Assembly (NCBI GenBank): GCA_017463365.1
Contig: JAFTPH010000042.1
Coordinates: 1 to 38,771, forward strand
DNA from: Bacilli bacterium
Lineage (GTDB): Bacteria; Bacillota_I; Bacilli_A; ML615J-28; CAG-313
Reading direction: 5' to 3'
Length of the DNA stretch: 38,771 nucleotides
The notes under the pieces were generated by a model. It saw nothing but the letters and a program-made list of their open reading frames with translations, had not been told where the DNA came from and did no database searches. Below, in pieces: positions 5,797-29,500 of the stretch. Made by a program: the position numbers and the translations under genes. Position 1 is the first letter of the stretch. The number at the start of each line of letters is the position of its first letter.

Positions 5797-5802
5797 GTTT
5801 TT
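5781..5802 (-). terminator. Intrinsic terminator after nptA
   Basis: A perfect palindrome (AACACC-AATT-GGTGTT with extra A/T pairs) begins at the nptA stop codon and is followed by a T-rich tract on the minus strand. Confidence 0.85.
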
Positions 5803-7432
5803 AATTTGTTCTTCCAGCAAGTAAATCAACAATATAATTTAAGTGGTCTCCTGCTCTTTCTAAATTAGAAATTAAGTTAATGAAGACACCACTACTTTGA
5901 GGTTGACATTTACCTTCTTCCAAACGCTTAATGTGACCATTTGTTAAATCTACACGCATTGTATCAATACGTTCTTCAATTTTATCGACACTTTCTAAAA
6001 CGCTATGATCTTTCTTAATCATTACACGTTCTACATTTTCAAATTGACGAGCTAATAAATCTTTAATTTCATATAAAGATTGTACAACTTCATCTGAGAA
6101 TGTTATATCTTTTTCTATAATTGTTTTTGTATGTTTAACTACGTTATCCGCAATTTCTGCCTCACGAATAAAGTCATTAATAATACTATGTAAGTTTGAA
6201 ACTTTCTTTTCATCATGTAAAGTAATTTCTTTAGAAGATACTTTTACAAGATAAGTTAATACATTTTTATTACATTCTTCAACGTTATTGATAACTTCAA
6301 AAACTTTGTTTTTATTTTCACTATCACGTTTTAGTAATCCATCTAATGCTAAATCTAAAGCACGCATTGCTTCTTGTCCTAAATAAGCAACTTCTCTTGT
6401 TGCTTGTAATACCGCAACCGAAGGAGTATTTAAGAAACGTTCATCAAGATAACTTGTTCTTTCTTCTTTTTTCTTATCTCTTACAAGAAGACTTGCTAGT
6501 TTAATAAAGACATTTATAAATGGAATAAAAATTACTGTTGAAACAACGTTAAATAATGTGTGGAACATTGCGACTTGAGTAGTTGGTTCTGGGAACGCAT
6601 TTTGTAATACATCAACCGCAAAGTTTTTCCAAAGAAGTAAAACAACAACAAAGATCGCTGTACCACAGACATTAAACAATAAGTGAATAACACTCGCACG
6701 TCTAGCATTAGTAGTAGCTCCAACTGAGGATAACAACGCTGTAACACATGTTCCAATATTAGTACCTAAAATTAAGAATAATACCGCATTTGGTGTTGAT
6801 CCAATTGTAAGTCCTACTGAAACCATAGAAATAATAATTGTTGTAACAGCTGATGATGATTGAATAATACCTGTAATTACAATACCAATTAGTAGTAGTA
6901 AAAATGGATTATCAATACTTGTTAATAAATCACGAACCGCTGGTAATTCTTTAAAGAATGCCATTGAATCTGACATAAATTCTAAAGCTAAGAATACAAG
7001 ACCAAGTCCTGCTAAAGTCATTCCGGCAGTTTTGGTTTTTTCTTTCTTACAAAGCATATCCATAAATACACCAATAAAGACTAAACCAATTGCGAATGTC
7101 GCAATATCAAAAGATTTTAAAGCAACAATTTGTGCTGTAATCGTAGTACCAATATTAGCTCCCATAATCATTGCTGTTGCCTGGAACAAATTCATGATTC
7201 CCGCATTAACAAACCCTACAATCATTACCGTTGTCGCTGATGATGACTGAATAATGGCTGTAACAACCATCCCAATAGCAACACCGATAAAACGATTCTT
7301 AGTTGCTTTTTCTAAGATACGTCTTAACCCTTTGTTAGCAAGTTTTTCAATGTTATCTGATAAAATTTTAAACCCTAATAAAAAGGCTCCAACTCCACCA
7401 AGTAACATTATAATCTTGTATACATATTCCAT
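5801..7432 (-). CDS. Na/Pi cotransporter family protein with PhoU-like C-terminal domain (543 aa)
   Basis: A membrane protein of the PF02690 (NptA/YjbB) family, sodium-coupled phosphate carriers. Two inverted repeats each carry the signature QSSSA(T/V)T, at residues 62-68 and 191-197, and each is followed by an M-G-A-N-I-G-T or L-G-T-N-I-G-T turn. Hydrophobic helices fill residues 1-315. The cytoplasmic tail from about 340 to 540 is helical, rich in charged heptads, and typical of the PhoU-like domain of this family. The gene has its own terminator; an extended -10 (TG-G-TATTAT, -10 hexamer at 7467-7472) lies upstream. Direction of phosphate flow, import or export, cannot be decided from the sequence. 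Confidence 0.85.
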   Translation of the reverse strand: MEYVYKIIMLLGGVGAFLLGFKILSDNIEKLANKGLRRILEKATKNRFIGVAIGMVVTAIIQSSSATTVMIVGFVNAGIMNLFQATAMIMGANIGTTITAQIVALKSFDIATFAIGLVFIGVFMDMLCKKEKTKTAGMTLAGLGLVFLALEFMSDSMAFFKELPAVRDLLTSIDNPFLLLLIGIVITGIIQSSSAVTTIIISMVSVGLTIGSTPNAVLFLILGTNIGTCVTALLSSVGATTNARRASVIHLLFNVCGTAIFVVVLLLWKNFAVDVLQNAFPEPTTQVAMFHTLFNVVSTVIFIPFINVFIKLASLLVRDKKKEERTSYLDERFLNTPSVAVLQATREVAYLGQEAMRALDLALDGLLKRDSENKNKVFEVINNVEECNKNVLTYLVKVSSKEITLHDEKKVSNLHSIINDFIREAEIADNVVKHTKTIIEKDITFSDEVVQSLYEIKDLLARQFENVERVMIKKDHSVLESVDKIEERIDTMRVDLTNGHIKRLEEGKCQPQSSGVFINLISNLERAGDHLNYIVDLLAGRTN

Positions 7433-9281: not shown

Positions 9282-10049
9282 CTAAAGAAGAAGACGCATT
9301 TTCCCTTTTGTTTCTACTCCTCCAAGAGCACTTCTACCGTTTTCAATATATTTTAACAATCCATCAAAATCAATATTTTGATTAATTGATGTTGTCGCAA
9401 CCTTTATTGCTGCAACCGCAGGATCATAAGTATGTGTATTTAACCTTTTAGGGCTAGAAGCAAAGTTTGCCCCAGAAGCAATTAATGCCTCAAAATGTGA
9501 ACCACATGCTCCAGCAATAACAATAACATCATCTAAAGAGAAATGTTTACGTATTTCGCGAATAGTTTTCACAAAATATTTACTATTTTCATAACTATCT
9601 AGCGAAGCAATATTACTTCCGTTATATGCATCATGACCCGTAATAACAATAATATCCGGTGTTATTTGTAATAAGATATCTTTAATCTTCAAATAACCTT
9701 CTTTTTCGGATAAATGTATTCCTTCTGCATATATTCCTAATTCTTTATATAAAGCCATACAACTATTTAAATATTCTTTATCGCCATCTATATGAAGAAT
9801 TCTCCCAAATATTGCTTTGGTTTTTCGTGAATTACTTTTTTCTTTAATAAGTTTTTTACGTTTTTGGTTTTTTAGTTCTTCTTTTTCTAGTTCTTCATCT
9901 GTTGCTAGTCTTATTTCTTCTTCTTTAACATATCTAACCATTCGGTAGCTATAACCAACCAAACAAATTAGTTCATTTATACTCTTAATCTTATATATAT
10001 TTTTATTGTCATCATCAATAACAATAACTTTATCCCCCACTTTAAACAT
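9282..10049 (-). CDS. yabG: Sporulation-specific protease YabG (255 aa)
   Basis: YabG is a mother-cell protease (peptidase family U57) that processes spore coat proteins. The protein begins M-F-K-V-G-D-K-V-I, like the family's M-x-F-x-I-G-D start, and carries the conserved segments I-L-H-I-D-G-D, D-I-I-V-I-T-G-H-D and the G-A-C-G-S-H-F-E-A segment with the Cys/His pair considered catalytic. An ATG 12 nt upstream at 10061 would add four residues but has no ribosome site. GGGTGA lies 5 nt before the ATG at 10049, so I choose 10049. It lies between ksgA and ispE, as in B. subtilis, and is strong evidence of spore-forming ancestry. Confidence 0.9.
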   Translation of the reverse strand: MFKVGDKVIVIDDDNKNIYKIKSINELICLVGYSYRMVRYVKEEEIRLATDEELEKEELKNQKRKKLIKEKSNSRKTKAIFGRILHIDGDKEYLNSCMALYKELGIYAEGIHLSEKEGYLKIKDILLQITPDIIVITGHDAYNGSNIASLDSYENSKYFVKTIREIRKHFSLDDVIVIAGACGSHFEALIASGANFASSPKRLNTHTYDPAVAAIKVATTSINQNIDFDGLLKYIENGRSALGGVETKGKMRLLL

Positions 10050-10077
10050 ATATTCACCCATATTATTATATGTTTAA

Positions 10078-12846: not shown

Positions 12847-13578
12847 TTATTTAAACATTGTTTTATCATATATATTATAAACATTATAATCAGTACGATC
12901 AACAGTTATTGGTGTTACTGATACATAACCATCATAATATGCATCTAAATCACAGGAAGTTTTGTTGTCTAAAACTCCATATAATGACTTACCGGTTGCT
13001 AAAAAACCTTCTTCTGTTTCAATAAACTCGGTATCAAAAGTATTTAACCCTTGATGAGTTATCTTTAATCCTTTTACTATTCTTGGAATATTTATATTTA
13101 ATGTATCAGCAATATTGAATATTTCACTTTCAATAATTTGATTAAAAACATTAATAAAGTTATTTGTTAAAGCTTCCATATCTCCCACTTCTACTGATAC
13201 AGCAAGACCTTTTTTACCAAAGAATGCGGCTTCGCTTGCCCCGGCGACTGTTCCGGAATAAATAATGTCGTCTCCCATATTAAGACCATTATTACATCCT
13301 GATACCACTAAATCAAAATCATAATCTAAGTGAACATAAGCAAATTTAGTACAAGTTGCGGGACTAGCATCTAAAGAATAAGTTTTAACTCCTTCAACTA
13401 AATCTTCACGCTTTTCAAGTTTCATTGGAACACCAAGAGTTAACGCATGACTTTTAGCTGATTGTTGATATAATGGAGCAACAACCATTACTTCATGGTT
13501 TTCACTTTTTAAAAGTCTTGCTAGTTCCTTTAAATAAGGTGATGTTATTGAATCGTCATTTACTATTAATATTCTCAT
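12847..13578 (-). CDS. surE: 5'/3'-nucleotidase SurE (243 aa)
   Basis: A metal-dependent phosphatase that removes phosphate from nucleoside 5'- and 3'-monophosphates; some members also trim short polyphosphate. The N-terminal metal site M-R-I-L-I-V-N-D-D-S and the downstream S-G-C-N-N-G-L-N, Y-S-G-T-V-A-G-A and P-L-x-Q-Q-S-A-K-S-H segments are intact. Normal length. Its ATG overlaps the stop of the preceding DHH gene (TAATG). Co-transcription with two oligonucleotide phosphoesterases points to a nucleotide-breakdown role. Last or second-last gene of the operon. Confidence 0.93.
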   Translation of the reverse strand: MRILIVNDDSITSPYLKELARLLKSENHEVMVVAPLYQQSAKSHALTLGVPMKLEKREDLVEGVKTYSLDASPATCTKFAYVHLDYDFDLVVSGCNNGLNMGDDIIYSGTVAGASEAAFFGKKGLAVSVEVGDMEALTNNFINVFNQIIESEIFNIADTLNINIPRIVKGLKITHQGLNTFDTEFIETEEGFLATGKSLYGVLDNKTSCDLDAYYDGYVSVTPITVDRTDYNVYNIYDKTMFK

Positions 13579-14546
13579 TATTCTAATTCCTTATTAGCTT
13601 GTTTAAATGAAGCATGTAAACTATCTAAATCATTTAGTATTGCTTTCATTTCTTTTTTATTATAGATAGTAGCTCCACTTGCTTGTAAATGTCCACCACC
13701 GCGGTAGCTTCTTGCAACTTCGTTAACAGCAACATATCTAGAACGTAAACGAACACGGATATTATCACCATAATCAACAAAAGTAACCCAAATCATTGAT
13801 CCTTTAATAGATGCCATTGTATTAACTAAAGCTGCAGCTTCATCACAACTAACACCAAATTTTTTCATAATTTTCTTAGTGAAGAACATATATACTACTC
13901 CACTTTTAGTCATTTTCATATTTTTATAAACATAAGCTTCTAAACGATAAGTATTCATTTCTTTTAAATTTAGTTTTGCGAACATATATTCTGTATCAAT
14001 ATCATAACTTAAAAGATTTGCTGCAGCATTCATTAAAGTTTTATCTACACCACGATACAAGAATCTTCCAGTATCAGTAATAATACCTGTATATAAAGCA
14101 AGAGATGCTTCTTTATTCATTTTCAACACATCACTTGATTCAATAAGTCTTGCGATTATCGCCGAACATGCAGCACTTCCTGCATCAATAAATTCTAAAT
14201 AATTTTCTTCTCTAAATGGATGACTATCATCATGATGATCAATTTTAATTAAGAATGCAGCATTTTGCCATCTATCATCATATATACGTTCTTTAATGCT
14301 TGTATCTACCACAATTACTAGGGCTTCCTTATATATATCATCACTTACTTCATCAGAAAGTCCAATAAAACCTAAATATTCCGGAATATCATCACCAACT
14401 GAATATATCTTTTTATTTGGATAAGTATTACGTAAAGCTTGAACAAGTCCTGCTTGAGAACCAATACAGTCTCCATCAGGACGCATGTGACGATGAACAA
14501 TTATTGTATCAAATTCTTCAATCTTTTTAATAATTTCTTTAAACAT
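13578..14546 (-). CDS. DHH/DHHA1 phosphoesterase, NrnA-like, copy 2 (322 aa)
   Basis: A manganese-dependent phosphoesterase of the DHH subfamily 1. Bacillus NrnA hydrolyses short oligonucleotides (nanoRNA) and 3'-phosphoadenosine 5'-phosphate; relatives cleave linear or cyclic dinucleotides. Motifs: H-R-H-M-R-P-D-G-D near the start, V-V-D-T-S, K-I-D-H-H-D (the DHH), and the DHHA1 signature G-G-G-H-L-Q-A-S-G-A-T near the C-terminus. All metal-binding positions are present, so it should be active. It is a tandem paralogue of the gene just upstream, overlapping it by 1 nt in TAATG. Confidence 0.88.
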   Translation of the reverse strand: MFKEIIKKIEEFDTIIVHRHMRPDGDCIGSQAGLVQALRNTYPNKKIYSVGDDIPEYLGFIGLSDEVSDDIYKEALVIVVDTSIKERIYDDRWQNAAFLIKIDHHDDSHPFREENYLEFIDAGSAACSAIIARLIESSDVLKMNKEASLALYTGIITDTGRFLYRGVDKTLMNAAANLLSYDIDTEYMFAKLNLKEMNTYRLEAYVYKNMKMTKSGVVYMFFTKKIMKKFGVSCDEAAALVNTMASIKGSMIWVTFVDYGDNIRVRLRSRYVAVNEVARSYRGGGHLQASGATIYNKKEMKAILNDLDSLHASFKQANKELE

Positions 14547-15487
14547 TATATTTCCTCCCCACTAGCAACTTTTTCTAAATCTTTAATAATTTCTGGAACA
14601 ATATCTAAACTCTTAACGGTTGCTCCACTTGCTTGTAAGTGTCCGCCACCACCATATTTAACAGCGACTTTATTAATATTTGCTTTATTTGAACGAAGTT
14701 CAACATATACCTCACCATGTTCATTTTCAGTAAATGTTGCCCAAATATTAATATTTTCAATGCCAGCCATGATTCCAATCATTCCTCGTGATATTTGATA
14801 AGTAGATACTCCAAGACGTTCAACCTCAGAGTATGGAGTTAATAGATATGCAACCTTTGTTGGTAAAACCGTAAATTTTAGTGTCATTTCGGCACGAAGA
14901 CGAACATTTTCTAATGAATCTATATATAAATTATTATATATTTCATCAATTTCAATTCCCGCATTCATTAAATAACTTGCTATTTCAAATGTTTTAGAAG
15001 TTGTTGATGAAAATCTAAAACGACCGCTATCTGTTACCATTCCTAAGAAGATAGCTGTTGCGGAATCCTTTGTTAAAACTAAAGGGGTATTTCTTATTAA
15101 ATCACCAATAATACCAGCACAACTTTCATAGCTATTATCAACTAAAACTAACTCTCCATATTCACCTTGAGGAATATGGTGATCAATCTTAATTAAGAAC
15201 TTTCCCGTTTTATAACGTTCATCATCAATTAAAGTTTCAGCCCCACTATCTAAGACAATTACTAAAGCATCATGATAGTCTTCATCACACGCTTCATCTA
15301 AAGTTCCTAAAAAAGCAAGGTTTTCACTCATACCCCCTACCGCTAATACTCTCTTAGTAGGAAACGTCGCTAAAATCGCGCGTTTTAGGCCTAATTGACT
15401 ACCTAAAGCATCACCATCTGGTTTTTTATGACGATGAATAATAATTGTATCAAATTCTTTAATTTTGTTATATACTTGTAAAAACAT
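14546..15487 (-). CDS. DHH/DHHA1 phosphoesterase, NrnA-like, copy 1 (313 aa)
   Basis: Same architecture as the next gene: H-R-H-K-K-P-D-G-D-A-L-G-S, V-L-D-S-G, K-I-D-H-H-I and G-G-G-G-H-L-Q-A-S-G-A-T. The aspartate of V-L-D is followed by Ser-Gly here and by Thr-Ser in copy 2, so the two may differ in substrate. It is first in an operon with copy 2, surE and the BofA-like gene, each joined by short gaps or 1-nt overlaps. AAGGAG precedes the ATG. Exact substrate (nanoRNA, short DNA, pAp, linear dinucleotides) cannot be fixed from sequence. Confidence 0.88.
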   Translation of the reverse strand: MFLQVYNKIKEFDTIIIHRHKKPDGDALGSQLGLKRAILATFPTKRVLAVGGMSENLAFLGTLDEACDEDYHDALVIVLDSGAETLIDDERYKTGKFLIKIDHHIPQGEYGELVLVDNSYESCAGIIGDLIRNTPLVLTKDSATAIFLGMVTDSGRFRFSSTTSKTFEIASYLMNAGIEIDEIYNNLYIDSLENVRLRAEMTLKFTVLPTKVAYLLTPYSEVERLGVSTYQISRGMIGIMAGIENINIWATFTENEHGEVYVELRSNKANINKVAVKYGGGGHLQASGATVKSLDIVPEIIKDLEKVASGEEI

Positions 15488-15550: not shown

Positions 15551-15577
15551 AAAGGCATTAGTTAACCTAATGCCTTT
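15551..15577 (-). terminator. Terminator of ABC-nuclease-OB repeat operon
   Basis: Perfect 11-bp stem (AAAGGCATTAG / CTAATGCCTTT) with a 5-nt loop and a T-rich tract on the minus strand, 11 nt after the stop codon of the repeat lipoprotein. Confidence 0.92.
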
Positions 15578-15588
15578 ATTAATTTTAA

Positions 15589-18500
15589 TTATTCAGCGTA
15601 AAATACTTCAATTTTGTCAACACGAACTTGAGCAGCTAATTCATCAATTGTGAATGAAGTAGCGCTTGATGCAAATTCGATAGTTGTAGTGCTACCATCA
15701 ATTGTAACAGTTGCACCAGTAATATCTAATGATTTGAAGTGTTTATTGTTTGTAGTGATTACAACTTTAGTGAATGCTTTTGTAGATTCAACTACTACTT
15801 GTGAACCAGCATAGAATCTTGCAGGATTGTAGTATTTTCCGTTTACTGCAGCTTTAGCACCATTTCTATTGTTGCTTACTTTAATTCCATTTTCTTCCCA
15901 AACTTGTGCTTCATCAGAAATTTGAGTTCTCTTTGAAAGGTCATTAAAAGTAATTGTTGCAGATTTAGTTGCAGGAGTTTCTCCACCTGTTGAACCTCCT
16001 GTGTTACCACTTTCAATTACAGCAGTAGCACCAGCAGCAACTTGTCTAGCATTATTATATGTACCCATCTTACCAGTTACAGTAACAACGTCACCAACTT
16101 TAACGTTAGTAGCAAGTCTGTAGCAGTATAATTCACCAGTTTCATCTTTAATAGTTACAGTAATGTTACCATATTTGTCGCTCCAAGGAGTATTGATTTC
16201 AGAAACAGTACCCTTAACAACAATACTTGCACCATCTTCTAATTTTAATGCTTCAGCAATTTTAATTGTTCCAGCAGGAGTAGAAGGAGTTTCTTCTTCT
16301 TTTTCTACATCAACAACAACGTAAGCAACTGCACCAGCTGCAAGTTGTCTTGCTTCTTTATAAGTTGCCATTTCACCAACAACGATAACTAATTGACCAA
16401 CTTCAACTTTAGTAGCAAGTCTGTAGCAGTATAATGATCCAGAGATATCACTAACAGTAACGCTCATATTACCATAAGTTTCATTCCATGGAGTGTTAAT
16501 TTCAGTAACTGTAGCTTGAATAGCAACCTTTGTTCCATCAGCTAATTTATTAGCTCCACGAATTGATAATGAAATTGCATCAGCAGGTATTTCGATTTCT
16601 TCTTTTGGAGCACTAGCGATTAATTCATAAGTAGCACCAGCTGCAAGTTGTCTTTCTTCTTTATAAGTTGCCATTTCACCAGTAACTTTAATAGTATCAC
16701 CTAATGCAACTTTACCAGCAAGTCTGAATAAATATAATGAACCAGTTTCATCTGTAAGAGTTACAGAAATATTTTTATATTGTTCACTGTATTCAGTTTT
16801 AATTTCAGAAACAACACCTGTAAGAATAACTGGAGTTTCATCTTCTAATGTTAATGCATCTTTAATAGTTGTTTCAACAGGATTAACTGGGTCTTTTACG
16901 ATTTCAGCAGTAGCACCAGCTGCAAGTTGTCTAGCACCTTTATAAGTTGCCATTTCACCTGTAACGATGATATAATCATCTAATTCAACTTTAGTAGCAA
17001 GTCTATAGCAGTATAATTCACCAGAGATGTCAGCGATAGTAACGCTCATGTTACCATAGTAATCACTCCATGCTGTATTAATTTCAATAACTTTACCTTG
17101 AAGTGAAATTGTAGTTCCATCTTCTTGTTTTAATGCATATTTAACTGAAACCAAGTCTGTATCTACTTCATCAGATACTTCAGTTTTGATAATTTCAGCA
17201 GTAGCACCTTGAGCAACTTGTCTTAATCCATTATAAGTAGTCATTGAACCAGTTACTTTAATAACATCACCAACAACAACTTTTGTTCCTAATCTATATA
17301 CATATAATCCACCTGTTGCATCAGCGATAGTAACAGAAAGGTTATTGTATTGATCGCTCCATTCAATGTTTACTTTAACAACAGTACCAGTAACGATAAC
17401 TTTTGTTCCATCAGGTAATTCATTTGCTTTTGCGATTGAAACTTCTACAGGGTCTGCAGGAGCAGGTGTTTCTCCACCAGTATTTCCACCTTCAATTACA
17501 GCAGTAGCACCAGCTGCAAGTTGTTTAGCACCATTATATGAACCCATCTTACCAGTTACAGTAACAACGTCACCAACTTTAACGTTAGTAGCAAGTCTGT
17601 AGCAGTATAATTCACCAGTTTCATCTTTAATAGTTACAGTAATGTTACCATAAGAATCGCTCCAAGGAGTATTGATTTCAGAAACAGTACCTTTAACAAC
17701 AACTTTAACACCATCTTCTAATTTTAATGCTTCAGCGATTGTTACTTTTTTACCTTCTTCTTCTTTTACTTCTTCTTTACCAACGATTTCACCAGTAGAT
17801 CCAGCTGCAAGTTGTTTAGCTCCATTGTATGAACCCATCTTACCTGTTAATTTAACAACGTCACCAACTTTAACATTTAATTTAGTTCTGTAGCAGTATA
17901 ATGTACCAGTTTCATCTTGGATAGTTACAGTAATGTTACCATAAGTATCGCTCCAAGGAGTATTAATTTCGATTACAGTACCTTTAACGATTACATCAGT
18001 ACCATCTTCTAATTTTAATGCTTCAGCGATTGTGATAGTTTTAACTTCAGTTTTTAAATTTAGTGTTAATTCAACTTTTTCTTCGATTGAACCACATTTA
18101 ATTGTTGCAGTTAAAGTTGCAGTAGTATCTGCAGTAACAACAAATTTACCATTTACTAATACAGATGCAGGATTTAATGCCCATTCAACTGTAACACCTT
18201 CAGCAGGGTTTACATTAGGGAATGCAAATTCTGAACCATTATAGTAAGCTTTTTCTAAAGTAACAGCTTTTACTTTGTTTACTGTTTGTTCAACTTTTTC
18301 TTCATCAGTTAAAGTTGGAGCACTTGCTTCAGCGATTGATGAAGCAACAGCGATAACACGGCTGTTATAAGGTTTGTATGTAGAATATTTATCATATGTA
18401 GCAGCGTTCATTGTTACATATTTTCCAACATAACCTTGTAACATTTCATCTTCTTCAGCAGAATAAGATTTGTAGTAAACTAATACTTGAGCACCAGTTG

Positions 18501-19413
18501 TTGGGTCTTCTAACCAATAAGAATCACTATCGTTAGCATTGTATTTACCATAAACTAGTTTACCATATAATTTAAGTGTTTGACCACCATACATACCATC
18601 ACTAATTGATTGTTCATGTAATTCTTGAATTGAAACTTCATCAGTATAAACGATATTTTGATCTTCAATATCAGTTACAGTAACTTCAATGTTAGAACCA
18701 ACTTGTAATACACCATAGTAAACAGTGATTGATCCTTTAACGTGAACTTCATCACCAACTTTTACAGCAACTTTATTAGAGTATACATAGATACCAGCAG
18801 TTCCATCACTTACCATGAATTGACCAGCACCGCTTGCTGCACAAACTGCAGTAACAGTTGCGTCAAATTCAACTGGATATTCTAAATCAGAACTACTTGA
18901 ACCAGGTTTAACACCATTTTCTTCGAAATAGAATTTAGCAGCAGCTTCTTTAATAGTAGCTAAAGTACCTCTTTCGATAGCACTAACTTCTTCTAAAACT
19001 GTAAATGTAAATTCTTTCTTAGCAGTTAATGTTTTAGTTTCATCATAAGTAATTGTAAATGTAGCAGTTAATGTTACATTTGCATTTCCAGCACCTTTTT
19101 CAGGTCTAGTTACTTTTGCTGTTTTGAATGTTGTTGATACAGCACCATTTTCCATTAAATCAGCAATTGCGATTACATCTGGATTACTACTTTCCCAAGT
19201 AATAGGAATTTCATATCCACTCTTTTTACCTTTAATAGCTAATTGGAAAGATGTAGTTACTTCAGTTGTGTTCGCGAATGTAACATTTTGAGTAAATTCA
19301 TCTAACACTTTTTGAGCTTCTTCTTTAGCACTTCCACCACCACATGCTACTAAAGCGATAGCAGCAAATAATGTTAAAGCAACTAAGAAGAATTTTTTAA
19401 ATGTCTTCAACAT
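15589..19413 (-). CDS. Giant lipoprotein with seven tandem OB-fold repeats (1274 aa)
   Basis: A lipid-anchored surface protein: signal peptide ending at L-V-A-C (Cys24). Order of parts: bacterial Ig-like domain about 30-142; an OB-like domain about 146-250 with Q-F-M-V-S-D-G-T-A-G-I-Y-V-Y, resembling the OB-like domains of the B. subtilis nuclease YhcR; a second about 256-358; another Ig-like domain about 370-455; seven repeats of about 87 residues at 459-545, 556-642, 656-743, 754-840, 847-932, 948-1033 and 1048-1134; a C-terminal beta domain 1150-1274. Each repeat reads I-x-x-A-x-x-L-x-D-G, then W-S-x-x-Y-G-N, then L-Y-C-Y-R, V-G-D, Y-x-x-x-R-Q-L-A-A-G-A-T. No nuclease catalytic motif is seen. 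OB folds bind single-stranded nucleic acid or oligosaccharide; nucleic acid capture is inferred from the adjacent nuclease. Last gene of the operon, with AGGAG before its ATG. Confidence 0.85.
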   Translation of the reverse strand: MLKTFKKFFLVALTLFAAIALVACGGGSAKEEAQKVLDEFTQNVTFANTTEVTTSFQLAIKGKKSGYEIPITWESSNPDVIAIADLMENGAVSTTFKTAKVTRPEKGAGNANVTLTATFTITYDETKTLTAKKEFTFTVLEEVSAIERGTLATIKEAAAKFYFEENGVKPGSSSSDLEYPVEFDATVTAVCAASGAGQFMVSDGTAGIYVYSNKVAVKVGDEVHVKGSITVYYGVLQVGSNIEVTVTDIEDQNIVYTDEVSIQELHEQSISDGMYGGQTLKLYGKLVYGKYNANDSDSYWLEDPTTGAQVLVYYKSYSAEEDEMLQGYVGKYVTMNAATYDKYSTYKPYNSRVIAVASSIAEASAPTLTDEEKVEQTVNKVKAVTLEKAYYNGSEFAFPNVNPAEGVTVEWALNPASVLVNGKFVVTADTTATLTATIKCGSIEEKVELTLNLKTEVKTITIAEALKLEDGTDVIVKGTVIEINTPWSDTYGNITVTIQDETGTLYCYRTKLNVKVGDVVKLTGKMGSYNGAKQLAAGSTGEIVGKEEVKEEEGKKVTIAEALKLEDGVKVVVKGTVSEINTPWSDSYGNITVTIKDETGELYCYRLATNVKVGDVVTVTGKMGSYNGAKQLAAGATAVIEGGNTGGETPAPADPVEVSIAKANELPDGTKVIVTGTVVKVNIEWSDQYNNLSVTIADATGGLYVYRLGTKVVVGDVIKVTGSMTTYNGLRQVAQGATAEIIKTEVSDEVDTDLVSVKYALKQEDGTTISLQGKVIEINTAWSDYYGNMSVTIADISGELYCYRLATKVELDDYIIVTGEMATYKGARQLAAGATAEIVKDPVNPVETTIKDALTLEDETPVILTGVVSEIKTEYSEQYKNISVTLTDETGSLYLFRLAGKVALGDTIKVTGEMATYKEERQLAAGATYELIASAPKEEIEIPADAISLSIRGANKLADGTKVAIQATVTEINTPWNETYGNMSVTVSDISGSLYCYRLATKVEVGQLVIVVGEMATYKEARQLAAGAVAYVVVDVEKEEETPSTPAGTIKIAEALKLEDGASIVVKGTVSEINTPWSDKYGNITVTIKDETGELYCYRLATNVKVGDVVTVTGKMGTYNNARQVAAGATAVIESGNTGGSTGGETPATKSATITFNDLSKRTQISDEAQVWEENGIKVSNNRNGAKAAVNGKYYNPARFYAGSQVVVESTKAFTKVVITTNNKHFKSLDITGATVTIDGSTTTIEFASSATSFTIDELAAQVRVDKIEVFYAE
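16012..18039 (-). repeat. Seven in-frame OB-fold coding repeats
   Basis: Repeat units lie at 17779-18039, 17488-17748, 17185-17448, 16894-17154, 16618-16875, 16315-16572 and 16012-16272, joined by short acidic or Gly/Thr/Pro linkers. Units 2 and 7 share an uninterrupted identical stretch of 111 bp (16063-16173 and 17542-17652), although they are not neighbours. Confidence 0.92.
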
Positions 19414-19432: not shown

Positions 19433-20770
19433 TTATTTTTGGTAACCTAAATCTTGTAAATTCATTACCATTAATTGATACCCATCATAATATGGTTGAA
19501 CTACCCCTACAACATTTGTGAATGTACATCCTTCAAATGTTGCCCATGTTTTATTTTTAATAATTCCCGTAACTTTTAATGCGACATTCGCATCGATTCT
19601 AATATTAACTCTTACTCCATCTGGAGTTTCAGTATAAATAGTGTAAGCTTCTGTATTTTCATCATCTTTACCACCAACTACTTTTAAAGTATCAAGTTTA
19701 ATTAAACGGCAAGACATTGAAACATCTAGATTTTGCCAATCTTGTGATGTTAATACAGTTGGCTCAACCACATTACCTGTAGATTCTACTTCAATTCGGT
19801 GATTTGCAACTCCAACTACTTGAAGAGCACCATTATGATAACTAATATTAGCATTTGTAATAATGTAATTTCCTTCAGCTAATTTTAAGTTTTCTTCGAA
19901 TCCACCATAAATATATACACCATATTTTTTACCATCGCCTTCAACGAATACTTCGTTTCCGTCTTCATCTACAGTGTAATATCCTTCATTTACTTGTTCA
20001 ATATATGCAGAACTAATACCTAATTTTCTAGTTACTAATCCTTCAATATATACCTTTGTTCCTTTGAACTCTTCTGATGAAATTGCCTCAGGAGTTCCAA
20101 ATTCATCAATAATTTGTTTTAACGTATATTTTTTACCTTGTGCGCTATAATCGTATGTTGGATCTTGTTCTCCATTTGTACGATCTTTAAATGCTTGTGC
20201 ACGACTATTTGCGTCATAGAATGTTTGCATATAAATAGTTCCAGTTAAACCTTTTGCTGGAGAATATCCCTCTTCAACTAATTCAAGATTTAACATTCTA
20301 TATGGTTCAGTAGCACTATTGCGATACCAAACATATGCTAAATATCTACTATTACTATCAAATAATCCTGTTGGATCAGCTTGTAAAATAACTGATTCAG
20401 CATTTTTTAATTTTTCTTTAGTAAATTTAGCAGCTGCAATTCCCCATGGTTCAACTTTATATGTTGATTCTGGAGTATCTAACCCTAAATATCTAACACT
20501 AATATCTTCTTTTCCTGTTGAAAGTAATGTTGTAAAGTATGTTGTGTCTCCATCAACATATTTAGTTACTTCAGCAAAACTTACCCCATCAACATCAAGA
20601 GTTGATGTTGATGTAGGCATTTTTGATATTTCTAATGTGTCTGTATATTTTGTTCTTGATCCAGTTAAATCAATTTTAGATCCATCTGGTGTATCTCCAC
20701 CACAACCTACAAGACAAATTATTGTAAATATTGTTAGAACTAAGGCAAATAGTTTAGTTCTAAATTTCAT
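19433..20770 (-). CDS. Thermonuclease (SNase-like) lipoprotein with C-terminal OB-type domains (445 aa)
   Basis: A secreted, lipid-anchored calcium-dependent nuclease. Lipobox L-V-G-C at residue 23. The SNase domain spans about 66-200. V-D-G-D-T (73-76) supplies the metal aspartates, R93 in V-R-Y-L-G-L-D-T-P-E corresponds to staphylococcal Arg35, D98 and E101 to Asp40 and the general base Glu43, and R142 in S-R-Y-L-A-Y-V to Arg87. All catalytic positions are therefore kept. Residues 200-330 and 335-445 form two more beta-rich domains, the first OB-like (K-V-Y-I-E-G-L-V-T, then Y-I-I-T-N-A-N-I-S-Y-H-N-G-A-L-Q-V-V). It lies 12 nt after the binding protein gene and 19 nt before the OB-repeat lipoprotein, so it is co-expressed with an importer. 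Confidence 0.88.
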   Translation of the reverse strand: MKFRTKLFALVLTIFTIICLVGCGGDTPDGSKIDLTGSRTKYTDTLEISKMPTSTSTLDVDGVSFAEVTKYVDGDTTYFTTLLSTGKEDISVRYLGLDTPESTYKVEPWGIAAAKFTKEKLKNAESVILQADPTGLFDSNSRYLAYVWYRNSATEPYRMLNLELVEEGYSPAKGLTGTIYMQTFYDANSRAQAFKDRTNGEQDPTYDYSAQGKKYTLKQIIDEFGTPEAISSEEFKGTKVYIEGLVTRKLGISSAYIEQVNEGYYTVDEDGNEVFVEGDGKKYGVYIYGGFEENLKLAEGNYIITNANISYHNGALQVVGVANHRIEVESTGNVVEPTVLTSQDWQNLDVSMSCRLIKLDTLKVVGGKDDENTEAYTIYTETPDGVRVNIRIDANVALKVTGIIKNKTWATFEGCTFTNVVGVVQPYYDGYQLMVMNLQDLGYQK

Positions 20771-20782
20771 TTAAATCACCAA

Positions 20783-22210
20783 TTATACTAAAGCGTTACA
20801 GTTTTTAATTGCTGTTGCGTATGCTTCATCAATTGGAGTTCCTACTAAAATAGCACGAACTAAAGCTTCAGCTTCATCACGAGCTTTAGATGAACCATTG
20901 AATGCTTCTGAAGTATAGAATAATTCTTGTTGTGACCAACCAACTAATTGAGCTTGAGATTTAGTTGTTCCGTCAGATACGCTCGCTTGGAATTCTGCAG
21001 AATTATAAACACTTTCACGAATTGGGAAGTATGCAGTTTCTGTACACCATAATAAAGCGTTATCGAAGTTAGTCATCCATTTCATGAATAACCATCCACC
21101 AAGTTCTTCTAAATCGTTATCTTTATCGAATAAGCAAACGTTAGTACCTTGTTGGATAACATTTTTATTTTGTCCATCTGCTCTTTGTGGATATTCAGCA
21201 ACACCAGTAACGAAGTTAGATGTAGTGTTGTATGATGCACCAGCAGAAGAACCGATTGTCATAATACATTGCATTGCTTTGAATGCATCTGATGAATAGT
21301 CAGTACCGAATCTTGTTGATGTTCCGAACAATCCTGCTTCATAGTTTTCAGCGAACCATCCAATAGCTTCTTTAGATTCAGCGTTATTGAATAAATATTG
21401 ACCTTTACCATTAGCATCGAATCCTGTATATTTACCACCCCATTGTTGAGTTAAAGTGATAAATAAGTTAGCTTCTGAATCAGCAGAGAATCCAGCTGCA
21501 GTTGCTTTTAATGATGCTTCTAATGAATTGTATTCAGCAGTTGTTTTGTAGAATGCTGCAATACCTTCGATTTGTTCCCAAGTAGGATTTCTCCAAGTAC
21601 CATCTGCTTGAACACCATATTTAGCAAGTTCAGTTGCATATGCTTGGAAGAAGTCTTTATTGTAGAATAATACTTCTGTTGATTTATTGAAAGGTACACA
21701 GTACATTTTTCCATCTCCGTATACAGAACCTTCTGCATAGAATGCTGATACGAAGTCATCTTTATCTGCTTGTGTCCATCCAACTTGTTCAGTTGCAACA
21801 GCTGTTTCAGCCCAACTAGGATCATCAACATAGTTAATTTTTGATGCTACAGATGCTGTATCATCAATGTATCCTTCTAAACTTGTTAAAGCTCTAGCGC
21901 TTAAATAACTTGCAATGTGGTCAGGATATGCTTGTGCAATTGTTGGAGCTTCTCCAACTGGAACTGAGTATAAAATTTTGTCTCTTAAATCAGTATAACC
22001 ACCTTGTGATAATTGTTCTACTTCAAACATTGGATATGCTTGTTCGAATGAATCAATCATTTCTTGAATAATTGCTTGGTTTGCTTGTCCCATCGCATGC
22101 CAGAAAGTAATAGTAGTTTTTCCTTCAACAACACCACTATCATTTCCTCCGCAAGCAGCTAATGAAACACTTGCGAATAATAATGCAATAATGCATAAAA
22201 TCTTTTTCAT
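20783..22210 (-). CDS. ABC importer solute-binding lipoprotein, family 1 (475 aa)
   Basis: An extracytoplasmic substrate-binding protein of the UgpB/MalE type, tethered by Cys19 or Cys20 of a lipobox (S-L-A-A-C-G-G-N). The mature N-terminus T-I-T-F-W-H-A-M is characteristic of the family, with F-W-H-A/S-M most common among glycerol-phosphate-type binders. Length is normal. The gene follows its two permeases by 54 nt, the largest gap in the operon, and precedes the nuclease. Substrate is unknown: sugars or sugar phosphates are the family norm; a product of nucleic acid breakdown is suggested only by context. Confidence 0.88.
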   Translation of the reverse strand: MKKILCIIALLFASVSLAACGGNDSGVVEGKTTITFWHAMGQANQAIIQEMIDSFEQAYPMFEVEQLSQGGYTDLRDKILYSVPVGEAPTIAQAYPDHIASYLSARALTSLEGYIDDTASVASKINYVDDPSWAETAVATEQVGWTQADKDDFVSAFYAEGSVYGDGKMYCVPFNKSTEVLFYNKDFFQAYATELAKYGVQADGTWRNPTWEQIEGIAAFYKTTAEYNSLEASLKATAAGFSADSEANLFITLTQQWGGKYTGFDANGKGQYLFNNAESKEAIGWFAENYEAGLFGTSTRFGTDYSSDAFKAMQCIMTIGSSAGASYNTTSNFVTGVAEYPQRADGQNKNVIQQGTNVCLFDKDNDLEELGGWLFMKWMTNFDNALLWCTETAYFPIRESVYNSAEFQASVSDGTTKSQAQLVGWSQQELFYTSEAFNGSSKARDEAEALVRAILVGTPIDEAYATAIKNCNALV

Positions 22211-22264: not shown

Positions 22265-23176
22265 TTAGCCTTTAATACCACTTCTTGATACCCCTGACAT
22301 AATATACTTACGTAAGAAGATAAATACAAGAAGTAACGGAACAGTTACAAGAACTGTCGCTGCCATTTGCGTATTATACGCAATACGTCCAGTTTCTGGA
22401 TCGGTGAAGGCTGCCCCACGTAACCCGTTCGTAATCAAACGCATTTCTAGTTTATTGGCTACTAGGTTAGGCCATACATATGAGTTCCATGAACCCATTA
22501 ATTTTAAGATTGTGATTGTAATGATTGTTGGCATTGCAATCGGAATCATAATTTTTAATAAATATTTGAAATCTCCTGTTCCATCAACTTTAGCCGCATA
22601 GTAAAGTTCATCAGGAATTTGTTTAAACGTTTGTCTTAATAAATAAATATAGAAGACACTTACAATAAACGGCACAATTAATGCTGTATATGTATTACCC
22701 CATTTTAAGTCAGCAACTACTGTTTTATAGTTAGTAATTGTCATCATTTCACCTGGGATCATCATTGTAGCCATAAATAATGAGAACATTAAGTTGCTAC
22801 CTTTAAATTTAATCCTCGCAAATGCGAATGCAGCAAGAATTGTTGTAATTAATGAACCAATTGTTGATAAAACACCTACATAAATTGTGTTATATAATAA
22901 TCGTCCATAATTAAATTCTGTTGTACTTAAAGCATTTTTATAGTTTATCCATTGAGGATGTGCTGTAAACAACGATTGAATTGGCGCTTCTAATTCAGCA
23001 GATGTTTTTAATGATACTAAGAACATCCAATAGAAAGGCACAATTACAAAGAAAGCCATAATAATTAAGAAAGAATAAAGAATAATGTGTTTGATAATTC
23101 TTAAAATTCTTTCTCTTTTAATCATTGCTTGAGCATTCATATGTTCACTTTGTGGAGTTATAACTTTACTTGACAT
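22265..23176 (-). CDS. ABC importer permease, MalG/UgpE-type (303 aa)
   Basis: Inner membrane subunit of the carbohydrate-type (CUT1) importer. Six hydrophobic helices follow a cytoplasmic N-terminus of about 30 residues. The coupling-helix motif E-L-Y-Y-A-A-K-V-D-G-T-G-D-F-K-Y-L occurs near residue 190, the usual EAA loop that docks on the ATPase. It pairs with the neighbouring permease, 12 nt upstream. Strong ribosome site (GGAGG). Confidence 0.92.
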   Translation of the reverse strand: MSSKVITPQSEHMNAQAMIKRERILRIIKHIILYSFLIIMAFFVIVPFYWMFLVSLKTSAELEAPIQSLFTAHPQWINYKNALSTTEFNYGRLLYNTIYVGVLSTIGSLITTILAAFAFARIKFKGSNLMFSLFMATMMIPGEMMTITNYKTVVADLKWGNTYTALIVPFIVSVFYIYLLRQTFKQIPDELYYAAKVDGTGDFKYLLKIMIPIAMPTIITITILKLMGSWNSYVWPNLVANKLEMRLITNGLRGAAFTDPETGRIAYNTQMAATVLVTVPLLLVFIFLRKYIMSGVSRSGIKG

Positions 23177-23188
23177 ATCTTACACCTC

Positions 23189-24121
23189 CTAGTAATGAAC
23201 AAATCTCTTGCTGACTTGTGATTGGATGGCGGTAATAATCATAATTATTACGAATAGTACAACTGCTCCAGCAGCGGCACGTCCAACCCCTCCGTCAACT
23301 CTCTTAAGACTGTCATAAATGTACCATACAATGGTTGCCATTGTATTTTGTTGATATCCATATGGTCTAGCATTATCAAAGATTGAAATAACTGAGTTAT
23401 ATTCTTTAAATGCACCAATGAATGATGTAATCATTAAATAAACAATTTGTGGAGAAAGTAGTGGAACTGTAATTCTACCAAATGTTCTAAGCTTTGATGT
23501 ACCATCAATTTGAGCTGCTTGATAGTATTGTTTATCAATACCTTGTAATGAACTTAAGAATAATAGAATTTTAAATGGTAAAGCGTCCCACACGATATAG
23601 ATTAATAATACCGCTAAACTATTAACATATGGTGCAGTACCTAAGTCAGATCCTAACCATTTAATTGGATCTCCTCCAAACATTTGAACTAATGTATTAA
23701 CTAAACCTGATTTATCATCAAACATAACCGCAAATACCATCCCAATAGCGATTGTATTTGTTACGTATGGTAAGAAGAAAATAGTTTGTAATACTTTTTG
23801 GAATTTAGGAATTGAATTTAAAGCAACAGCAATTATTAATGCTAAAGCAATTGAGATCGGTACAGATACTACCGCGATTAATGCTGTGTTTTTTAAATAA
23901 ATGTTTATAAAGTTCATATCAGGGTTTACATCGCTTCGAACAAATAAGATTTCGAAGTTTCCTAAACCAATACCTGAATATTCACCACTAAAATAATTGT
24001 AATTTTCTTTGAAAGCTGTAATAAATGTATTAACTAGCGGATAGAAAGTAAACACAATCATCAATATGATTGTTGGTGCTAGATACAACCACGCTTTCCA
24101 TTGACTTTGTTTAACTTCCAT
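23189..24121 (-). CDS. ABC importer permease, MalF/UgpA-type (310 aa)
   Basis: Second membrane subunit of the importer. Opens with A-W-L-Y-L-A-P-T-I-I-L-M, the standard first helix of CUT1 MalF/UgpA-type permeases, and has the EAA-loop sequence Q-Y-Y-Q-A-A-Q-I-D-G-T-S-K near residue 200. Six helices, normal length. It starts 1 nt after the ATPase stop codon, so the two are translationally linked. Confidence 0.92.
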   Translation of the reverse strand: MEVKQSQWKAWLYLAPTIILMIVFTFYPLVNTFITAFKENYNYFSGEYSGIGLGNFEILFVRSDVNPDMNFINIYLKNTALIAVVSVPISIALALIIAVALNSIPKFQKVLQTIFFLPYVTNTIAIGMVFAVMFDDKSGLVNTLVQMFGGDPIKWLGSDLGTAPYVNSLAVLLIYIVWDALPFKILLFLSSLQGIDKQYYQAAQIDGTSKLRTFGRITVPLLSPQIVYLMITSFIGAFKEYNSVISIFDNARPYGYQQNTMATIVWYIYDSLKRVDGGVGRAAAGAVVLFVIIMIITAIQSQVSKRFVHY

Positions 24122-24122
24122 A

Positions 24123-25202
24123 CTATTGAATTCGACTTTCTGTTATTTTATCAAATACGAAACATTTATTTTTCTTAATAGTTGCTTTAATTTGTTTTCC
24201 TGGTTCAACATTTTTAATATCTGAGTCAATAATGAAACGGAATGTAGGATTTTCAGAATATGGATTTCTTCCCACAATTGATTTGTCACGTCCGATATAT
24301 TCTACTTGTTCAATATCAATTGTAAATTCTCCAGTACCTTCATCGTTTACTTCAAATCCTTCAGGTCTAATACCAACAATTACATCTTGGTTTTCTAATT
24401 CAGAATCACCAATTTTTTCATCACCAATATATAAACCTTTGTTTTCAACTTTACCAAAGAATAAATTAATTGGTGGAGTTCCTAAGAATTTAGCAACAAA
24501 TTTATTAACAGGATTGTTGTAAACTTCTTGTGGAGCACCTTTTTGTTGTTCAAGACCAGTTTTCATAACTACGATTTCATCAGAAATACTCATCGCTTCT
24601 TCTTGGTCATGAGTTACGAAAATAGTTGTGATACCCGTTTCACGTTGAATTCTTTTGATTTCTTCACGAGTTTGTAAACGTAAACGAGCATCTAAGTTAG
24701 ATAATGGTTCATCTAATAATAACACTCTTGGTTCTTTAACTAACGCACGAGCAATCGCAACACGTTGTTGTTGTCCACCTGATAATTGTTTAGGTTTACG
24801 ATTTAATAATGTCCCGATGTCAACTAAGTCAGCAACCTTTTGAGCTCTTTCTAAAGCTTCTTGTTTAGGCACTTTTAAGTTTTGTAAAGGGAATAAGATG
24901 TTTTGTAACACTGTCATATGAGGGTATAGAGCATAGTTTTGGAAAACTAGTCCAATTCCTCTTTTTTCTGGTGGTAACTCAGTTACATCTTCATCATCAA
25001 AAAAGATTTTCCCTGATGTAGGTTTAAGTAGACCAGCAATCATGTATAGAGTTGTTGATTTACCACATCCAGAAGGACCTAATAAACCAATTAATTTCCC
25101 TGAAGGGATAGTAATATCAAGTTCATCTACGGCTCTTACTTGTTGAGATGCATCACCTTTATCTTGGAAAACCTTAGTTAGTTTCTCTAATCTAATATCC
25201 AT
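24123..25202 (-). CDS. ABC importer ATPase, UgpC/MsmX-type (359 aa)
   Basis: Energises the importer. Walker A G-P-S-G-C-G-K-S-T, Q-loop V-F-Q-N-Y-A-L-Y-P-H-M-T, signature L-S-G-G-Q-Q-Q-R-V-A-I-A-R-A, Walker B V-L-L-L-D-E-P-L-S-N-L-D-A and the switch histidine in F-V-T-H-D-Q-E-E-A are all intact. Residues from about 240 form the TOBE/regulatory domain usual in this group. MsmX-type ATPases often serve several importers; here a dedicated copy heads the operon, with promoter and GGAGG ribosome site directly upstream. Confidence 0.95.
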   Translation of the reverse strand: MDIRLEKLTKVFQDKGDASQQVRAVDELDITIPSGKLIGLLGPSGCGKSTTLYMIAGLLKPTSGKIFFDDEDVTELPPEKRGIGLVFQNYALYPHMTVLQNILFPLQNLKVPKQEALERAQKVADLVDIGTLLNRKPKQLSGGQQQRVAIARALVKEPRVLLLDEPLSNLDARLRLQTREEIKRIQRETGITTIFVTHDQEEAMSISDEIVVMKTGLEQQKGAPQEVYNNPVNKFVAKFLGTPPINLFFGKVENKGLYIGDEKIGDSELENQDVIVGIRPEGFEVNDEGTGEFTIDIEQVEYIGRDKSIVGRNPYSENPTFRFIIDSDIKNVEPGKQIKATIKKNKCFVFDKITESRIQ

Positions 25203-25255: not shown

Positions 25256-25284
25256 ATTATACCATATTTTTATCTTTTTCGCAA
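25256..25284 (-). promoter_or_regulatory. Promoter of ABC-nuclease-OB repeat operon
   Basis: Minus strand TTGCGA (25279-25284), 17-nt spacer, TATAAT (25256-25261). A palindrome AAAACGTTTT at 25336-25345, about 50 bp upstream, recurs at the spoVG promoter and may be a regulator site. Confidence 0.85.
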
Positions 25285-26569: not shown

Positions 26570-29500
26570 TTATTCCTCTTCTTCCTTGATTAAGTTTTCT
26601 CCAAATAAATCTACCGCTTTGTTATATGATGCACTTTTTTCATTAACAAAAGATTTTTTAATTATTTTTAATTCTGGATTATTAATTGGAGTAAGTTTTG
26701 GATATCTAGTACCCATTTGATATTGTCCACGATATTCATTACGTTTTTCTTGCCAAATGTTTTCAGGCAACGCAATAAAATCATATTCTCTACCAAAAGT
26801 AATTTTTAAGATTTGTTTTGCTTCAAATCTAATCTTGTCTCCCATAATGTGATTACATAGTGCAGCATTAGGGTAAGTAATAATGATACAGTTATTTCCG
26901 TTTACTACAGGAACTCCATCCATTAAGAATCTAGCAACTGGAGATAAAGCTGTACCGATACGATCTCCTAAATGACGCCAGTTATTTAAAATAATCTTGC
27001 GTTCTTCACGAGATATTTCGCTTCTTGAATCATGCATAACCAATTCAATCTTTTCAATTGCGTAAGGGTTATCTTCATCAACTTTAGGAGCAACTGTTTT
27101 TGTTTTAGTTTCAATAACAGTTGAACGTTTATAAACAGGAATTTCTTCTTGCACCTTTTCAACTTCTTTTTCTTCAATTGTTGGCACTGTAAAGGCAGGT
27201 TTTTGAACAACTGGCTCTTCTTTAACTTCTCCAACTACCTTTTCTTCTATTACAGACTCTTCTTTAGTTGGTGTTTCTTCTAAAGTTTCAGTTTCAACAA
27301 CTTGTTCTGCTGGTTCTTCAACAGGCGTTTCAACAGTCACTTCTTCAGTAACAGGAGCCACAACTGGTTCTAAAACAACTTCAACAGGTGCTTTTTCAAC
27401 AACCGGTTCTTGAACTTGAATAGGTTCTTCTACTGGTTTTACAACTGGAGTAGGTTCAACATATGTTGTTTGACCTTCTTTTGCGTTTCTAAATTCCTTA
27501 ATTAAACCTTTAATTTCTTCAATTAATTTCTTTAATTCTTTATCTTTAGTTACTGAAACCATTGCATCTCTTACACTGATTGTAATTAAGAATGTCTTAA
27601 TATTTTTATTTGCGTCTTTTTCAAGTAATGGGTCTGATGCGTGAACACCAGTTTGTTTATCTTTAATAAACATATTGATGTCATCTTTCATACCATAAAG
27701 ATTTACAACCGCGTGATTTAATTCATCAAGTTGTTCTTTATTGCTGTTAGCAACAACTCTTAAACAATATTCTAATTCTTTTACATTACATGATAAATCG
27801 TAATGTTTTTCTTCTTCAACAACTCTTTCGAAATCATCAATTGAAAGAATTCCGCTCTTATTAGGTTCAGCTTTGACTTCAACTTTGACTGGTTCTTCTT
27901 GAACAGGCTCTTCTTTAACTTCTTCAACTTTCTTTTCTTCTTCTACTGGTTCTTCTAATGGTTTATTAAAGAACACTGGATTTGTAAAGAAATCATCAAT
28001 TGATCTTGTCATTTCTTCTGGAAGTTCAACTTCTTCTTCCTCAGTTTCTTCTTCTACATCAACTGGTTGTGGAGCATTTTCTTGTTCTTGATCATTTTCC
28101 CAAGCCTCACTTACTTCATTATCAATTACTTGTTCATCACTAGAAGGTTCGTTTTCTACTACTTCTTCAAAAACAGGTGCTTCAACTGGTTCTGGGAATA
28201 ATTCTTCAAGAGGAGCTTCTTGTTGAGCTTCTTCTACAGTTTCTGGGAATAATTCTTCCATTACTTCTTCTTCAGGTTTATCATCTGTAACAAACTCTTC
28301 TTGTTTTTCCTCAATAAATGGAATATAGAAAGGTTTTTCTTCTTTATTTGTTTCGCTTACAGGGAATAGCTCTTCCATTATTTCTTCATGTGGATACTCT
28401 TCTACATCTACTTGAGGTAACTCAACTTCGTTAACTGGTGATAATTCTTCAGTTTCTTCAATTTGAGAATATTCTTCAACACCCTCAAATAGATTATTTT
28501 CTTCAGTTTCTTCAATTTCTTCAGGAATTGATCCACCAACTGGGAATAATTCTTCCATTACTTCTTCATGTGGATATTCTTCTTCTTGAGCCTCAGTAGC
28601 TTCTTCTAATTCTCTTTGAGCTTCAACTATATCTAAAACTTTTTGTTCATATGGGTTTTCACGTTTTTGAATAGTTGGTTCTTCATCTTCGTTTACAAGA
28701 ATTAATTCATTTAAAGCAGCTTCCACATTATTATATGCATGTTTCATTTCTTCTAGTTCATGTTTCAATTCTTGATATTTTTGTTTTAATTCTTCTAACT
28801 CTTCAGAATTGTTTGGTTCATTAAAATCAAATAATGTTGGTTCAACATCATTTTGTTTATTAATTTCTTTTAAATTCATTGATAATTCATCAAGTTGGTT
28901 GAAAGCAAGTTGAATAGATGCTTCAATTTTTTCAAATTCTTCTTGGTTAATATATGTATTAGTGTCTTTTTCTTGATTTTCTAATTTATCAACTTTTTGA
29001 ATTAATTCTTTTGTTTTATTTTCTAATGTTGAAAGTTTTTGATTAACTTCTTCATTATTTTCATCATTATTATTTCCATTTAATTGATTTTTAATCAAAT
29101 TAATTTCTTCATAAACACCATCTAAATTAACATTTGTTGGAGCTTCTTGATTTTCTAATTTTACAATACGTTCTTCTAAATCATTAGATGGATTATTATA
29201 AATTGTTTTTGTTGCCATATCTTCTAATGAATTTAGTTTGTTTTTTGTTTCTTCTTTAAATTCATGTAAATTTAATTTTACAAGTTCGCTCTTTAATTTG
29301 TTAAATTGAGTTTCTAAAAGATTAACTTTTTCATCGTTATCGCCTGATGAAGCTACCATACCAGCTCCATCTACCACAACATGAGCATCATAATCTTCTT
29401 TTGTGGCATTTGCCATTTTCATAATACCAACTTCAAGGAATATTTTTTGAGATAAACTAAATTTAATTTTATTTTGAACATCACTTAAAACATCAATATA

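Follow-up and report, generated by a model that had tools for sequence, protein, structure and literature searches.

Gene and domain organisation of the OB-array lipoprotein

The window analysed here, the whole 38,771-nucleotide stretch of contig JAFTPH010000042.1, contains on its minus strand a gene for a 1274 aa protein (15589–19413, stop codon at 15589–15591), as defined by its ORF and translation, and all features of this gene and its neighbours given below lie on the same strand unless stated otherwise. The protein starts with a signal peptide read from the sequence (19342–19413, aa 1–24) with the lipobox LVAC at aa 21–24, followed by an Ig-like domain (18991–19272, aa 48–141, Pfam aBig_2 PF20578), an N-terminal OB domain (18664–18960, aa 152–250, 3e-15 with an iterated repeat HMM and supported by the AlphaFold2 strand order), a second, divergent OB-like domain (18319–18630, approximately aa 262–365) and a second Ig-like domain (18052–18306, approximately aa 370–454), the bounds of which are approximate and were taken from the second aBig_2 stretch and AlphaFold2. 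Seven OB repeats follow, placed by repeat HMM and alignment: R1 (17773–18039), R2 (17482–17748), R3 (17179–17445), R4 (16888–17154), R5 (16609–16875), R6 (16306–16572) and R7 (16003–16269), with linkers that are short and either acidic or composed of Gly/Pro/Thr. The last 125 residues form a beta-rich domain (15592–15966, aa 1150–1274), recognised from the beta structure in AlphaFold2 and from relatives, with close relatives present at the C-terminus of the homologues in genomes G010 and G011. The Pfam matches of the protein were to tRNA_anti-codon (PF01336, 2.2e-31, 108 bits vs a cut-off of 27), BOF (PF04076, 2.9e-15, domain score 56.6 vs a cut-off of 25.8) and, in two stretches, aBig_2 (2.7e-12).

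A sequence-only reading of this DNA had described seven tandem repeats at 16012–18039 on a lipid anchor, with W-S...Y-G-N, LYCYR and RQLAAGAT motifs, two Ig-like domains, two further OB-like domains and no visible catalytic site. The repeats are real as judged by HMM and identity, extend over 16003–18039 within one minus-strand ORF and contain the quoted motifs, and the anchor and Ig-like domains agree with the lipobox and the two aBig_2 stretches. The Pfam scan likewise gave no catalytic domain in the protein, which consists only of OB, Ig-like and beta domains. With regard to the two further OB-like domains, the one at aa 152–250 is solid, whereas the one at approximately aa 262–365 gave no match with the iterated repeat HMM and is placed by AlphaFold2 strand and helix order only.

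Neighbouring genes and a likely operon

The gene directly upstream of the OB array encodes an SNase-type nuclease lipoprotein of 445 aa (19433–20770, PF00565, 2.6e-11), with a weak OB match at its C-terminus (0.0013). The equivalents of SNase residues Asp21, Arg35, Glu43 and Arg87 are kept in 17/17 aligned sequences (the window SNase and 16 homologues), and the Asp40 position is either Asp or Asn across the same alignment. This gene is preceded by genes for a solute-binding lipoprotein (20783–22210, SBP_bac_8, Pfam 5.2e-29), with below-cut-off NCBIfam matches to UgpB and Mycoplasma P68 (5.5e-6 for P68), and, based on Pfam and NCBIfam, a UgpE-like ABC permease (22265–23176), a UgpA-like ABC permease (23189–24121) and a UgpC/MalK-like ABC ATPase (24123–25202). 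The order on the one strand is thus ABC ATPase, permease, permease, solute-binding lipoprotein, SNase lipoprotein and OB array. Gaps between the six genes are short, a promoter-like site is found upstream of the ATPase gene (25256–25284, 10/12 match, TG before the second hexamer) and a terminator-like hairpin with an 11-pair stem after the OB-array gene (15551–15577), both from a consensus scan only, and the six genes are therefore likely to form one operon, as predicted from this arrangement.

Downstream of the OB-array gene, and preceded by their own promoter-like site in the consensus scan, are two genes for NrnA-like DHH/DHHA1 phosphoesterases (14546–15487 and 13578–14546, NCBIfam NrnA 1.2e-68 and 1.6e-73, both below the curated cut-off, with Pfam DHH and DHHA1 domains) and a gene for the 5'/3'-nucleotidase SurE (12847–13578, TIGR00087, over cut-off with 147 bits). 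Products of SNase are 3'-phosphorylated, and hence the annotation of SurE as a 5'/3'-nucleotidase fits with an SNase in the adjacent gene set.

Several other genes were recorded in the window. Na+/Pi cotransporter genes flank the locus (5801–7432 on the minus strand and 32449–33351 on the plus strand), one with a PhoU domain, and phosphate handling may be linked to the locus, because the DNA-degradation loci of Ca. Izemoplasma are described as also holding phosphate transporters (PMC8289736). A Lit-like lipoprotein intramolecular transacylase (PF07314) is encoded at 36–704 on the plus strand, and surface lipoproteins may therefore be present in lyso-form in this organism. The DnaX protein (26570–30481, 1303 aa) has a very long, acidic and repetitive Glu-rich insert, and family members with a complete orthologue have a shorter protein of about 835–1015 aa. 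Homologues of Spore_II_R (2043–2504) and the YabG peptidase (9282–10061) suggest that sporulation genes are present, the genome being 1.74 Mb in size and also encoding RNA polymerase delta.

Sequence and history of the repeats

The repeat unit is approximately 89 aa, and the seven repeats align over 90 columns, 19 of which are invariant. When the repeat HMM was used to search the whole 1.74 Mb genome, it found exactly these seven (E 7e-43 to 1e-47), plus two further weak OB matches (E about 1e-5 and 3e-4). Pairwise identity between the repeats is 47–87% at the amino acid level, with R7 being 87% identical to R2, and 60–91% at the nucleotide level, against a mean of 7.5% and a maximum of 19% for shuffled-repeat controls; these E-values and identities rule out chance as the source of the array. 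Tandem Repeats Finder detected R1/R2 only (period 291). In the repeat tree, R1/R2/R7 and R4/R5/R6 form separate groups with R3 apart, although the alignment has few columns and many of the forks are unresolved. This weakly resolved tree suggests that the array arose in several rounds of duplication (R1/R2/R7 and R4/R5/R6), and the same splits give no support to one recent expansion producing all seven repeats.

We compared the repeats with the OB domains from related loci, giving a set of 72 OB domains from the window and from distant hosts. Eight positions (Y33, N35, Y50, R51, G59, D60, G66 and Y71) are conserved in 72–100% of these domains, with fractions of 0.78 for Y33, 0.91 for N35, 0.72 for Y50 and 0.74 for R51.

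Fold prediction and structural similarity

When folded alone by AlphaFold2, R2 is predicted to form an OB barrel with a mean pLDDT of 96.8, and in a model of aa 75–1274 the same strand pattern is seen seven times, with low-confidence linkers in between, resembling beads on a string. This near-whole-protein model can be used for domain order only (pTM 0.37), and its Foldseek matches were mostly DNA binders with tandem OB domains, although these superposed poorly at the global level. The best matches of R2 in Foldseek searches of the PDB included RPA32, CST-Stn1, HIN-200, POT1, LysRS and E. coli YgiW (1nnx), with a TMq of 0.77 to the HIN-200 p204-dsDNA complex. While single-sequence phmmer searches of the PDB with a repeat gave chance-level matches only, the profile of the 72 OB domains matched yeast Rfa2 (4e-7) and human Stn1 (2e-4). 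In this alignment, the conserved Tyr-Arg of the repeat corresponds to the strand of human RPA32 which carries a DNA-stacking tryptophan. The predicted five-stranded barrel and the similarity at family level support assignment of the repeats to the PF01336, RPA32/Stn1-like OB fold.

The BOF family (YgiW/YdeI) consists of small periplasmic single-domain proteins, and this does not describe a 1274 aa multi-domain lipoprotein, which also scored 23.5 against a cut-off of 108 with the YgiW/YdeI subfamily model. BOF/YgiW proteins are not known to bind nucleic acids.

Conservation of the locus in the family and in distant genomes

The family was sampled with 15 genomes (G000–G014). A full-length SNase lipoprotein is present in 12/15 (G000–G006, G008–G011 and G013), and the next gene encodes an OB-domain protein in all 11 genomes where the contig continues; G009 is outside this count, with a contig ending within 90 bp of the SNase gene. 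The SNase gene is directly upstream and on the same strand, with a gap of mostly 16–131 bp across these genomes and the distant loci with the same gene pair. The best match to the SNase in G007 is shorter, and a contig of this genome starts inside the OB gene and runs into nrnA-nrnA-surE; G012 and G014 (71% and 65% complete) have the shorter SNase only. The nrnA-nrnA-surE genes are adjacent and on the same strand in the family. Since there are two SNase genes in the 1.74 Mb of the window's own genome, we estimate that random SNase-OB adjacency would occur at approximately 0.2% per locus.

When the OB repeat was used as the sole query against 84,980 species in an independent scan, 23 loci were obtained, mostly from gut metagenome-assembled genomes (MAGs) named as Clostridia, Lachnospiraceae, Oscillospiraceae and Bacteroidota, the distant relatives being mostly from the ruminant gut. 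The ABC-SNase-OB locus is present in 9/23, and in 7 of these 9 distant loci nrnA-nrnA-surE are adjacent, in inverted orientation relative to the arrangement in the family. In complete homologues from the locus the number of confident OB domains is two to four, and in the window protein it is eight (2–8 overall); across the whole order, the seven-repeat model matches at most twice in any other genome at E 1e-12. One locus (L010) encodes a secreted Endonuclease I fused to four such OB domains, which are at most 66% identical to R2. Two loci contain further genes: HD phosphohydrolase, DeoC and thymidine kinase in L013, and a 5'-nucleotidase-like gene in L015.

The OB gene of L013 (5367–8282) appears to be split in two frames, with a 156 aa lipoprotein start followed by 801 aa, and the probable cause is a frameshift, either in the MAG or in the genome itself. 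The window's own genome also has a second multi-OB lipoprotein of 718 aa (L072, 16664–18820, on contig C1 of G000), and the surrounding 19 kb contains no homologues of the window SNase or ABC genes. In L025 (2997–9647), a dockerin-bearing GDPD enzyme adjoins a protein that combines a dockerin, five OB repeats and F5/8C domains, which represents the same OB type in a possible cellulosome-like setting acting on phosphodiesters.

Proposed function and alternative explanations

We consider it probable that the OB-array protein acts as a multivalent, non-catalytic receptor for nucleic acids, anchored by its lipid and belonging to a nucleic-acid foraging locus. This is because the OB fold and RPA32/Stn1 likeness combine with a conserved locus of SNase, NrnA and SurE, and with the repeat-nuclease fusion in L010; the fold prediction, the anchoring signal, the conserved gene order, the intact nuclease residues and this fusion are what the analysis shows directly. 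In the proposed mechanism, the seven RPA32/Stn1-like OB domains would retain extracellular DNA or RNA on the surface of the cell, presumably with gain from avidity, with the Ig-like and other OB domains lifting the array off the membrane. The held nucleic acid would then be cut by the SNase lipoprotein from the adjacent gene, and the products would be taken up by the solute-binding lipoprotein and CUT1-type ABC importer, their putative substrate being such products. Inside the cell, the two NrnA-like enzymes and SurE may trim oligonucleotides and dephosphorylate nucleotides. The OB fold proposed in the sequence-only reading is borne out by the single-repeat structure prediction, Foldseek and the Rfa2 profile match, and its multivalent array by the seven tandem OB repeats. 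Its suggestion of polymer capture receives indirect support, and the conserved set of SNase, importer, NrnA and SurE genes allows it to be narrowed to nucleic acid; these neighbouring genes, which that reading had not used, carry most of the functional evidence. An experimental parallel is provided by ExeM of Shewanella, where nuclease activity is almost completely lost when a region with two putative YhcR-like OB folds is deleted (PMC6085458).

Several findings count against the receptor reading, namely the acidic repeats (net charge −1 to −7 per repeat, array pI 4.6), the BOF/YgiW matches, the L025 OB repeats with dockerin and F5/8C domains beside a GDPD enzyme, the ability of OB folds to bind sugars or proteins as well, and a transporter which is Ugp/maltose-like and not a proven nucleotide importer. 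Typical DNA-binding OB domains are not acidic like the array repeats. We judged net charge to be non-discriminating as an argument against nucleic-acid binding, because the partner SNase lipoprotein, which must bind its substrate, has the same pI of 4.6.

The acidic surface would also suit an array that serves as a structural spacer or as a scaffold for docking, binding the SNase lipoprotein or the solute-binding lipoprotein and holding the nuclease off the membrane with the polymer untouched. OB domains often mediate protein contacts, with OB-OB contacts in Stn1-Ten1 and RPA14/32, the SNase lipoproteins themselves carry weak OB matches, and an OB count varying from 2 to 8 between locus homologues would be tolerated in a stalk. 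We nevertheless regard this as unlikely: the conservation of the Y-G-N and Y-R positions over 72 OB domains goes beyond the needs of a spacer, and the same repeats are found within the secreted Endonuclease I of L010. The linkage of SNase, NrnA and SurE, which act on nucleic acids or their products and stay together across distant lineages despite the inversion, argues against capture of another polymer, such as a polysaccharide, peptidoglycan fragments or a teichoic-type polyphosphodiester, with import of sugar or glycerol-phosphate and only an incidental role for SNase. The UgpABCE/maltose-like ABC system, the BOF/YgiW similarity and the L025 arrangement of OB repeats with F5/8C and dockerin adjoining a dockerin-GDPD enzyme are all in line with such a ligand, but zero glycoside hydrolases were found among the identified locus genes, and we think this option rather improbable. 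Finally, surface capture of DNA beside recR and dnaX genes could point to a DNA-uptake receptor for natural transformation instead of feeding. We consider this very unlikely, as a nuclease, a small-solute importer and intracellular NrnA and SurE point to degradation; moreover, the window ORFs that were scanned with Pfam include no competence gene, and neither recR nor dnaX was matched in the distant loci over the stretches that could be read.

Comparison with known systems

The nucleic-acid receptor reading places the locus next to several described systems. In M. agalactiae, MAG_5030 to MAG_5070 are described as one transcription unit encoding a lipoprotein SNase, a solute-binding lipoprotein, an ATPase and two permeases, and this Mycoplasma SNase-ABC operon was proposed to supply the importer with nucleotide precursors (PMC3585158). 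The window locus has the same components, with a lipoprotein SNase with intact active-site residues and, adjacent on the same strand, the solute-binding protein, ATPase and two permeases. The likeness is in gene content, as the Mycoplasma operon has a different gene order, and its description in PMC3585158, as far as covered, includes neither an OB-array lipoprotein nor adjoining NrnA/SurE. The DNA-degradation loci of Ca. Izemoplasma include a 1,049 aa protein joining binding, nuclease and lamin-tail domains (PMC8289736); going by that description, binding and nuclease are on one polypeptide there, whereas the window has a separate non-catalytic tandem-array lipoprotein and an SNase-type nuclease. 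A locus of the DNA/RNA degrader Hujiaoplasma nucleasis zrk29 combines an extracellular ribonuclease, NrnA and ABC transporters, with no OB-fold protein or lipoprotein in its main-text description (PMC10470597).

ExeM/NucH and YhcR contain OB domains of the same kind as the array, and the NCBIfam ExeM model matches four stretches of the OB-array protein. However, the protein lacks the EEP catalytic domain of ExeM/NucH (NF033681, 84.8 vs a cut-off of 300) and the phosphoesterase/nucleotidase domain of YhcR, and in Pfam it is likewise without a lamin-tail; because no catalytic domain is present, we discarded the interpretation that the array belongs to an ExeM/YhcR nuclease. RPA32 and Stn1 give the best profile and fold matches of the array repeats, but these are intracellular single OB domains in heteromeric complexes, whereas the window array is extracellular and homotypic.

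While SNase-ABC operons and DNA-degradation loci are known, a separate OB-array lipoprotein of variable length appears to be new, as we found no earlier description of one in the main texts of open-licence papers. Little is known about how gut bacteria capture and consume environmental DNA and RNA, and the described loci are centred on nucleases and transporters; the present locus offers a candidate for the capture step that is both defined and conserved, and makes such loci recognisable in genomes where these proteins match a generic OB domain only. As the homologues form a natural series of 2 to 8 OB domains, the avidity idea is directly testable. Whether the homotypic, extracellular RPA32/Stn1-like OB string, separate from the nuclease and with species-variable length, constitutes an undescribed class of surface receptor is in our view evenly balanced. 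If it does, such strings would serve DNA and RNA eaters in the way that SusD-like or CBM-array proteins serve polysaccharide eaters.
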